Source of the DNA: Treponema sp. J25
GTDB taxonomy: Bacteria; Spirochaetota; Spirochaetia; Treponematales; Breznakiellaceae
Direction: 5' to 3'
Length of the DNA: 39,751 nucleotides
NCBI RefSeq assembly: GCF_004343725.1
Contig: NZ_PTQW01000051.1
Span: 1 to 39,751 of the forward strand
The notes below the pieces were generated by a model that was not told where the DNA came from, did not search any database, and was given only the letters and a program-made list of their open reading frames with translations. The translations under genes were made by a program, and so were the position numbers. Position 1 is the first letter of the stretch; every line of letters begins with the position of its first letter. This document shows, piece by piece, positions 1,301-10,474 of this stretch.

Positions 1301-2605
1301 GTGGTTTATAAATTGAATATACCTTTATTAAATAAAATACGAGCCAATAGCGATTACCGCCGGCTTTTTGAAAACTTTGTCTCCCTTGCAATACTGCAGG
1401 GTCTCAATTACATACTGCCCCTTATTACCTTTCCATATCAGGTGCGGGTGTTAGGGGTAGAAAAATTTGGGCTCCTGTCTTTTGCCACGGCTACGATTGG
1501 GTATTTTCAAACACTAACTGACTATGGGTTTAATCTTTCAGCAACCAGGGAAGTGGCTATACACCGGGAAAACAAAGAAAAACTAGAAGAAATCTTCAGC
1601 TCTGTTATGATAATCAAAGCAGGGCTTTTTGTTTTAAGTTTCTTGCTGTTGAATATTTTAGTATTCAGTTTTGAAAAATTCCGATCAGACTGGTTTGTTT
1701 ACTATCTTGCCTTTGGCATGGTGCTGGGGCAGGTTCTGTTTCCGGTATGGTTTTTTCAGGGAATGGAACGAATGCGCTATATTACGTTCCTTAATATTCT
1801 GGCCAAAGGCTTTTTTACTATTGCCATTTTTATTTTTGTAAAAACTCAAGAAGATTATTGGAAGGTGCCGCTCCTAAATTCGATAGGATTTGTGGTAGCT
1901 GGGGTATTAAGTTTGTTACTAATTAAAAAACAGTTTAATGTTTCTATAAAGCTTGTGGGTAAATATGGTATAATTTCACAATTAAGAGATGGTTGGCATG
2001 TGTTTGTCTCAACTATTGCTACAAGTTTATATACAATTAGCACGACTTTTATATTGGGAATATTTACTAATAACGTTATTGTTGGTTACTATTCTGCGGC
2101 TGATAAGATAATACAGGCAGTAAAAGGTTTGTATGGACCATTATCACAAGCTTTGTTCCCGTTTATTTCAAAAAAAGTTTTTGAATCTAAAGAAAAAAGT
2201 CTAATTTTTATTAGAAAAATTACAAAATATGTTTTTATTATTACCATTTTGTTATCATCTTTATTATTTATTCTTTCTGATTTAATTGTTGCTATTTTAT
2301 TAGGGAAAAATTATGTTAACTCAATAATGATTTTAAAAATATTAGCTATCCATCCATTATTAATTGGTCTAAGTAATATTTTTGGTATACAGACAATGTT
2401 GGCTTATGGAAGAAAAAAAGCATTTCAAAACATTTTAATTATTGCAAGTTTGTTGAATATAGCTTTATCTTTATTTTTAGTTCCTTTATATACTCATATT
2501 GGATCAGCAATCAGTGTAACAATTGTAGAATTCTTTGTAACATTTACAATGTTTTTATACTTGCAAAAAATAGGAATAAAAATTGTGGAGATTAAAAATG
2601 TTTAA
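1301..2605 (+). CDS. wzx: Wzx-type polysaccharide flippase
   Basis: A 434-residue, strongly hydrophobic protein with about 12 predicted membrane segments, typical in length and pattern of the PST/MOP O-antigen flippases (RfbX/Wzx). The N-terminal sequence FVSLAILQGLNYILPLITFP followed by RVLGVEKFGLLSFA is a family hallmark. It would move undecaprenyl-linked oligosaccharide units across the inner membrane. The likely start is GTG 1301; TTG 1313 is an alternative, and neither has a good free ribosome site. It overlaps glf by eight bases. Base composition changes sharply inside the gene: 32 of 60 bases are G/C at 1441-1500 but only 10 of 60 at 2221-2280. This suggests a recombination junction or a mosaic gene. 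Confidence 0.88.
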   Translation: MVYKLNIPLLNKIRANSDYRRLFENFVSLAILQGLNYILPLITFPYQVRVLGVEKFGLLSFATATIGYFQTLTDYGFNLSATREVAIHRENKEKLEEIFSSVMIIKAGLFVLSFLLLNILVFSFEKFRSDWFVYYLAFGMVLGQVLFPVWFFQGMERMRYITFLNILAKGFFTIAIFIFVKTQEDYWKVPLLNSIGFVVAGVLSLLLIKKQFNVSIKLVGKYGIISQLRDGWHVFVSTIATSLYTISTTFILGIFTNNVIVGYYSAADKIIQAVKGLYGPLSQALFPFISKKVFESKEKSLIFIRKITKYVFIITILLSSLLFILSDLIVAILLGKNYVNSIMILKILAIHPLLIGLSNIFGIQTMLAYGRKKAFQNILIIASLLNIALSLFLVPLYTHIGSAISVTIVEFFVTFTMFLYLQKIGIKIVEIKNV

Positions 2606-3738: not shown

Positions 3739-4749
3739 ATGACTCAAAGTTTAAATATTGAGAAATATACAAATATATATATTGCTTGTCCTGCAAACAT
3801 AGCTTCTGGTGGTCCTGAATTACTCCACCAGTTGGGTTATGAATTGGCCAATTTGGGTTTTGCTACATATATGTTTTATTATAATAGCAATGAGAATGTA
3901 TACCCTGTTCATGAAGCTTACCTATGTTACGGTAATAAATTTGTAAATGAAATTGAAGATGTAAAAAAGAACATTTTGATTGTACCAGAAACATATACCC
4001 AATTAATCTATAATTACAAGTATATTCAGAAAGTAATATGGTGGTTAAGTGTAGATAATTATTATAATTTTTTAAAATCAAATAGTAAAATTAAAAAAAA
4101 TATTAAAATTTTCCTTTATAAATTGGGATTTTTCCCAAAAGAGAAAATATATAGATTTAGTAAAAATGAAAATATATTACACTTAGTCCAAAGTGAATAT
4201 GCGAAACAAATGTTAAAGAATAAAGGTGTTGATAGTCTTTTCTTAGGTGATTATCTGAATTATTATTTTATACAAAAGCAAGAAAATAATACAAATCCTA
4301 AAAAAGAAAATATAGTCGTCTACAACCCTAAAAAGGGAAAAGAATTTACAAATCTTATTATTGAAAAAGCAAAAGACATTAAATTTGTATCTATAGAAAA
4401 TATGACAAGAGAAGAAGTAGCAGATTTGCTTTCTCGTGCCAAAGTATATATAGATTTTGGGAATCATCCAGGTAAAGACAGAATTCCAAGAGAAGCAGCT
4501 ATTCTGGGTTGTTGTGTTATTACAGGGAAAGATGGTTCTGCAAAATTCTATGAGGACATCCCAATAGGAAATAATTTCAAATTTGATGCAAATAAAAAAA
4601 ATATTCCTTTAATAATCAAAAAAATTAAGAGTTGTTTTGAGAACTATGAAACTATTACAAAAGAATTTGAGTATTATAGAGAAATAATTAGAAATGAGCG
4701 AACAAAATTCTTAGATGACTTAAAAAATATTTTTAAGGTCAATGTATGA
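3739..4749 (+). CDS. putative GT-B-fold glycosyltransferase
   Basis: This 336-residue protein opens with IYIACPANIASGGPELLHQL, where the GGPE element resembles the donor-side glycine loop of GT-B enzymes. In the C-terminal half VYNPKKGKEF and AKVYIDFGNHPGKDRIPREA resemble the nucleotide-sugar binding part of GT4-like transferases, with a REAAILGC segment where those enzymes carry their E-x7-E-like helix. No signal peptide or membrane span is seen, so it probably acts at the cytoplasmic face. The sugar it transfers cannot be deduced. It begins one base after glf with AAAGGA as ribosome site, and its stop overlaps the next start in an ATGA. Codons are very A/T-biased. Confidence 0.7.
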   Translation: MTQSLNIEKYTNIYIACPANIASGGPELLHQLGYELANLGFATYMFYYNSNENVYPVHEAYLCYGNKFVNEIEDVKKNILIVPETYTQLIYNYKYIQKVIWWLSVDNYYNFLKSNSKIKKNIKIFLYKLGFFPKEKIYRFSKNENILHLVQSEYAKQMLKNKGVDSLFLGDYLNYYFIQKQENNTNPKKENIVVYNPKKGKEFTNLIIEKAKDIKFVSIENMTREEVADLLSRAKVYIDFGNHPGKDRIPREAAILGCCVITGKDGSAKFYEDIPIGNNFKFDANKKNIPLIIKKIKSCFENYETITKEFEYYREIIRNERTKFLDDLKNIFKVNV

Positions 4750-10436: not shown

Positions 10437-10474
10437 TACCAAAAATAGATTTTTATATTGAAAAGGAGCTCTCA

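Follow-up and report, generated by a model that had tools for sequence, protein, structure and literature searches.

The locus considered here raises the question of whether a single intact gene for a polysaccharide flippase can be a mosaic of two histories. Exchange of surface-glycan clusters in Klebsiella and E. coli has its junctions outside or between genes, whereas the candidate junction described here lies inside wzx. The window is a stretch of 39,751 nucleotides from Treponema sp. J25 (contig NZ_PTQW01000051.1), in which wzx occupies 1301−2605 on the + strand; the gene has a GTG start and encodes a putative polysaccharide repeat-unit flippase of 434 aa. The product matches the Pfam profile PF01943 (Polysacc_synt; E 2e-62, 211.5 bits against a cut-off of 28.2), and the reading frame is unbroken from end to end, as the initial annotation had stated. 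The protein is an ordinary Wzx of the MOP superfamily, and the gene carries a credible but unproven junction; from its placement within a glycosyltransferase cluster, Wzx is predicted to transport undecaprenyl-PP-linked repeat units. A search of the organism’s own genome matched wzx alone, with no second close copy.

The AlphaFold model of Wzx (pLDDT 93) has two six-helix lobes in a MOP/MATE fold, and a fold search with this model gives WzxE and MurJ as best matches. WzxE is a lipid III flippase (PDB 9G97, 9G9P) described as having 12 helices arranged in lobes of residues 1−210 and 211−418 (PMC11706664); in the window the corresponding N-lobe (TM1−6) is a conserved module at 1301−1936 with a third-codon-position GC content (GC3) of 0.38. 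TM6 comprises residues 188−212 (1862−1936), and is followed by the inter-lobe linker between TM6 and TM7, residues 213−220 (1937−1960); the C-lobe (TM7−12, TM7 beginning at residue 221) is a variable, very AT-rich module at 1961−2602 with a GC3 of 0.15. All of these features lie on the + strand.

A composition breakpoint inside wzx had been proposed at about 1850−1970, and this breakpoint is real. The best maximum likelihood change point in GC3 is at 1904, with a support interval of 1790−1967 (within 2 log units), GC3 falling from 0.40 to 0.16; the break is again at 1904 when only synonymous GC3 is considered (0.38 to 0.15). None of 5000 codon shuffles stratified by amino acid produced a step as large as that of wzx; amino-acid composition therefore fails to account for it. 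The estimate of 1904 falls in TM6, slightly ahead of the linker. The counts first used to describe the shift, 32 of 60 bases G+C at 1441−1500 and 10 of 60 at 2221−2280, are exact, and these 60-base pieces were picked near the extremes, the former being the maximum of the gene.

Host codon use was taken from 243 genes in a 380-kb portion of the genome (GC 0.494), where the 5−95% range of GC3 is 0.355−0.596. The 5′ part of wzx, with a GC3 of 0.376, sits at the 5.8th percentile and is thus compatible with the host, yet atypical; to call it host-like was loose wording, while the rest of the gene is very AT-rich as claimed, its GC3 of 0.148 being below that of all 243 host genes. Steps at p<=0.001 are present in 2 of 135 host genes (~1.5%), so that composition alone is no proof of exchange. 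At the same threshold, homologous loci show steps in 4 of 103 wzx genes vs 1 of 324 other ORFs (Fisher p 0.013). At the aligned position the GC3 difference of the window gene is larger than that of 101 of its 102 homologues, L011 being the only one to surpass it. Ten wzx genes carry a GC3 step at p<=0.01; the front is GC-richer in all ten, and the break lies at codons 184−218 in five of them.

Low GC3 is kept from glf to a GT1-like gene (0.11−0.24 across these genes), so that an AT-rich block of 8.5 kb begins at the wzx break. The change-point scan and composition profile place this island at 1904−10464 (+ strand), between the wzx break and rmlA; its right edge, at 10457−10491, coincides with the rmlA start, where GC rises from ~27% to about 48−50%. 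The block includes glf (2601−3737, +), which encodes UDP-galactopyranose mutase (PF03275, E 6e-70) and overlaps the end of wzx, and a gene at 3739−4749 (+) with no Pfam match; the same order of wzx, glf and this gene is found in another spirochaete genome (G053), and tblastx and blastn show synteny of this region with locus L142. The remainder of the block (4746−10436, +; GC3 0.11−0.22) encodes two GT2 glycosyltransferases, an asparagine-synthase-like amidotransferase, a TOD1/MUCI70-type glycosyltransferase, and a DUF1972/GT1 rhamnosyltransferase-like protein. On the other side of the break, the PDDEXK gene upstream of wzx has a GC3 of 0.40, and this composition runs on into the N-lobe. Beyond the block, a vapBC toxin-antitoxin pair lies between rmlD and rmlB (12915−13540); VapC matches a Leptospira-type tRNA(fMet) endonuclease model, and vapC is itself AT-rich (GC 0.30).

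Separate trees were built from residues 12−195 (N) and 206−425 (C) with 62 homologues. In both trees, Wzx of the window pairs with that of L086, which comes from a spirochaete of a different family (support 85 for N and 99 for C); when L092 is added, the window, L086 and L092 form an N-lobe clade with support of 100/97. The discordant trees by which the exchange was to be recognized are therefore not found in the window gene: L086 is a relative of both parts, the halves are congruent at the available, sparse sampling, and a C-lobe from a distant donor lacks tree support; exchange within the window/L086 clade may have taken place. The window gene was at one point considered tree-discordant, L086 being closer in the C-lobe (0.59) than in the N-lobe (0.56), and this was dropped after the 100/97 clade was obtained. 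According to the initial annotation, close relatives with the same shift and congruent trees would speak against exchange; L086 is congruent, but its wzx has no GC3 step (0.33/0.32) and its Wzx is only 58% identical to that of the window. The order wzx, glf, next gene is common to the window and the L086 genome, which indicates that these three genes are an older unit within spirochaetes. The nearest N-lobe relative is the spirochaete L092 (76%). Among members of the host’s family, the only copy of this wzx is a distant one (29%), and further genomes of both spirochaete families and of the family of G098 contributed no additional useful copies; no donor for the window gene was found among the homologues searched. 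A 75% match in G093 stops at residue 118 because the contig ends there, and is not the broken remnant that it resembled.

Across the family, the two lobes have conflicting trees; each is rejected by the data of the other lobe, the C tree with a loss of 447 log units and the N tree with one of 1219, vs a difference of −20 to +10 for N data simulated on the C tree (12 simulations). Pairs with N-lobe identity of 0.75−0.92 and C-lobe identity of 0.20−0.42 are common and the reverse was not seen; the break codon in 85 mosaic pairs has a median of 203 (quartiles 198−218). Homologue pairs are mutually dependent, so that all pair figures given here are descriptive and not tests. Sulfurihydrogenibium yellowstonense (L012) and a spirochaete (L087, on a 387-kb contig) have 95.0% identity over 603 bp, codons ~13−214, and the ~9 kb and ~19 kb compared have no similarity beyond this piece; the identity ends abruptly, at a junction which maps to 1951 of the window. 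A second genome from the phylum of L012 (L156; Aquificota) has the same N-lobe, at 94−95% DNA identity, with a third C-lobe; C-lobe DNA identity within this set is 47−52%, L156 having 47% to either other (L012 5965−7272, L087 1477−2766, L156 1495−2748; reverse strand orientation). As neither flank is common to the three, what they share is just the N-lobe. L152 and L158 have an N-lobe identity of 0.89 and a C-lobe identity of 0.54; this pair also has short upstream patches in common. The same N-lobe DNA joined to unrelated C-lobes at the linker is thus seen in L012/L087/L156 and in L152/L158, and the window gene displays the composition step only. These cases show that the lobes move independently, and the mover may be the N-lobe or the C-lobe. 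The family break at codons 198−218 and the window’s step at TM6 and the linker both fall at the boundary of two structural units. Lobe modularity of Wzx as a family-wide property is strongly supported, and better so than the junction of the window gene; the idea of a mosaic flippase holds for relatives at the same place, including the spirochaete L087, but not as discordance within the gene for which it was proposed.

The gene next to wzx is predicted by the C-lobe and not by the N-lobe, an association mostly carried by the glf group. Where the C-lobe is at least 0.45 identical to that of the window, 12 of 13 loci have glf directly 3′ of wzx; among the other assessable loci 1 of 41 does, and none of the 18 with an N-lobe identity of at least 0.60 and a C-lobe identity below 0.45. 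When ‘glf next’ is treated as a state, it requires 11 changes on the N tree vs 7 on the C tree. Over all homologues, 1 of 106 mosaic pairs has a homologous next gene in common; the figure is 43% for pairs whose N-lobes are below 0.55 identical and whose C-lobes reach 0.45 or more. The signal is weak once the glf group is removed (4 of 52 pairs with N-lobe <0.7 and C-lobe >=0.45). Physical adjacency and functional matching would both predict this linkage. A Citrobacter wzx with adjoining glf (L046, 5965−7221) resembles several glf-type genes more in its C-lobe than in its N-lobe; its identities to L071 (N 0.36, C 0.49) are opposite to the usual pattern.

It is probable that wzx of the window arose by exchange at the lobe boundary in a modular flippase family and that the composition step is the trace of this event. 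The place and sharpness of the step are the grounds on which we infer the exchange, its direction, and the use of N-lobe DNA as the crossover site. N-lobe DNA (TM1−6) and C-lobe DNA (TM7−12) would each recombine with the lobes of relatives where the two lobes meet; a single AT-rich block would consist of the C-lobe half, glf and the genes that follow, joined in frame to the N-lobe, the conserved part with a different base-composition history. Most likely, homologous exchange, inside or at the end of the conserved N-lobe DNA, would have joined a resident front to an incoming back half, which would bring its own glf and glycosyltransferases. It is proposed that the lobes fold as units, and that in-frame products at their boundary would for this reason be kept by selection. 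The initial annotation’s proposal of 3′ replacement stands in so far as an intact gene contains a junction that opens an AT-rich block extending through the glycosyltransferases; the discordance that it expected between the trees of the two parts was not obtained. Switching of the surface glycan would be the presumed outcome of such an event in this organism.

The opposite direction, with the N-lobe and not the C-lobe replaced, suits the data nearly as well, though it is considered rather unlikely: the whole wzx would have arrived with the AT-rich cluster, and a less AT-rich wzx would later have supplied a new 5′ part through homologous recombination or gene conversion. In its favour, only the N-lobe is shared between otherwise unrelated DNA in L012/L087/L156, the N-lobe GC3 of 0.38 is low for the host, and the nearest N-lobe relative is the spirochaete L092; against this, the genome has no second wzx as donor, and the upstream composition is continuous into the N-lobe. 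Less probable still is that no exchange took place and the step is ordinary codon heterogeneity within an imported or slowly changing gene beside an AT-rich cluster. The host genes with steps of equal significance and the placement of L086 with both lobes fit this account; the step nevertheless opens a continuous 8.5-kb AT-rich block and sits on the family breakpoint, and L086 lacks it.

The contrast between lobes across the family could also be attributed, without recombination, to a more constrained N-lobe and a C-lobe under fast adaptive change, which is highly improbable. Concordant pairs, too, show a somewhat better conserved N-lobe; however, C-lobe identity is equal or higher in close pairs such as L002/L028, and the N and C topologies conflict. 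Rate differences alone are ruled out for L012/L087/L156, since they cannot yield near-identical N-lobe DNA beside unrelated C-lobe DNA. A broader proposal can be offered tentatively for this cross-phylum family: the N-lobe would serve as a general chassis, into which the C-lobe would fit as a substrate-specific cartridge; with crossover in the conserved N-lobe DNA, exchange at the TM6−TM7 linker would provide a standing route for swapping glycan clusters between distant bacteria, and the window would contain one such junction.

Wzx of the window has the same fold as WzxE (TM-score 0.74), with 14% identity in the structure match. In the available account of WzxE, TM7 rotates between states and several of the proposed sugar-contact residues (D249, Q255, D262) are in the C-lobe, which holds much of the proposed contact network; that portion of the account treats WzxE as one gene and describes no lobe exchange (PMC11706664), in contrast to the lobe mosaics in the family of the window gene. 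The only chain matched by sequence is a TacF-type teichoic acid flippase (PDB 9XZN; E 3e-11, residues 28−401), which differs in substrate and host group. Pneumococcal cps loci are altered by recombination that includes wzx, as in 6D (wciP, wzy, wzx); these exchanges, in the sections available, take place within a single species and concern entire genes or segments, with no lobe-boundary junction or cross-phylum modules (PMC5850285). Transfer of gene clusters brings new surface glycans in Klebsiella, where whole serotype loci are exchanged (PMC13043062), and in E. coli, where O-antigen clusters are switched (PMC5359238); the outcome is the same as in the reading preferred for the window. No earlier report of exchange at the Wzx lobe boundary was found in the open journal literature that was searched.

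The substrate specificity of Wzx proteins is hard to assign because their sequences are highly divergent; if C-lobes are swapped as units with the adjoining sugar genes, natural lobe chimeras would reveal the seat of specificity. A conserved block of ~0.6 kb within wzx would, if this holds, explain cross-phylum recombination of otherwise unrelated glycan clusters, and single Wzx trees would blend two histories.

Two further features lie 5′ of wzx. The PDDEXK_9 nuclease-family gene (170−1012) has an open frame back only to a stop at ~101−103, with more stops 5′ of this and the contig end at base 1; it is probably 5′-truncated or broken. A 14-nt inverted repeat (1264−1296; 93% complementary, 5-nt loop) is found directly 5′ of the wzx start codon; it has no terminator-like T run and would bury the likely ribosome-binding site of wzx.
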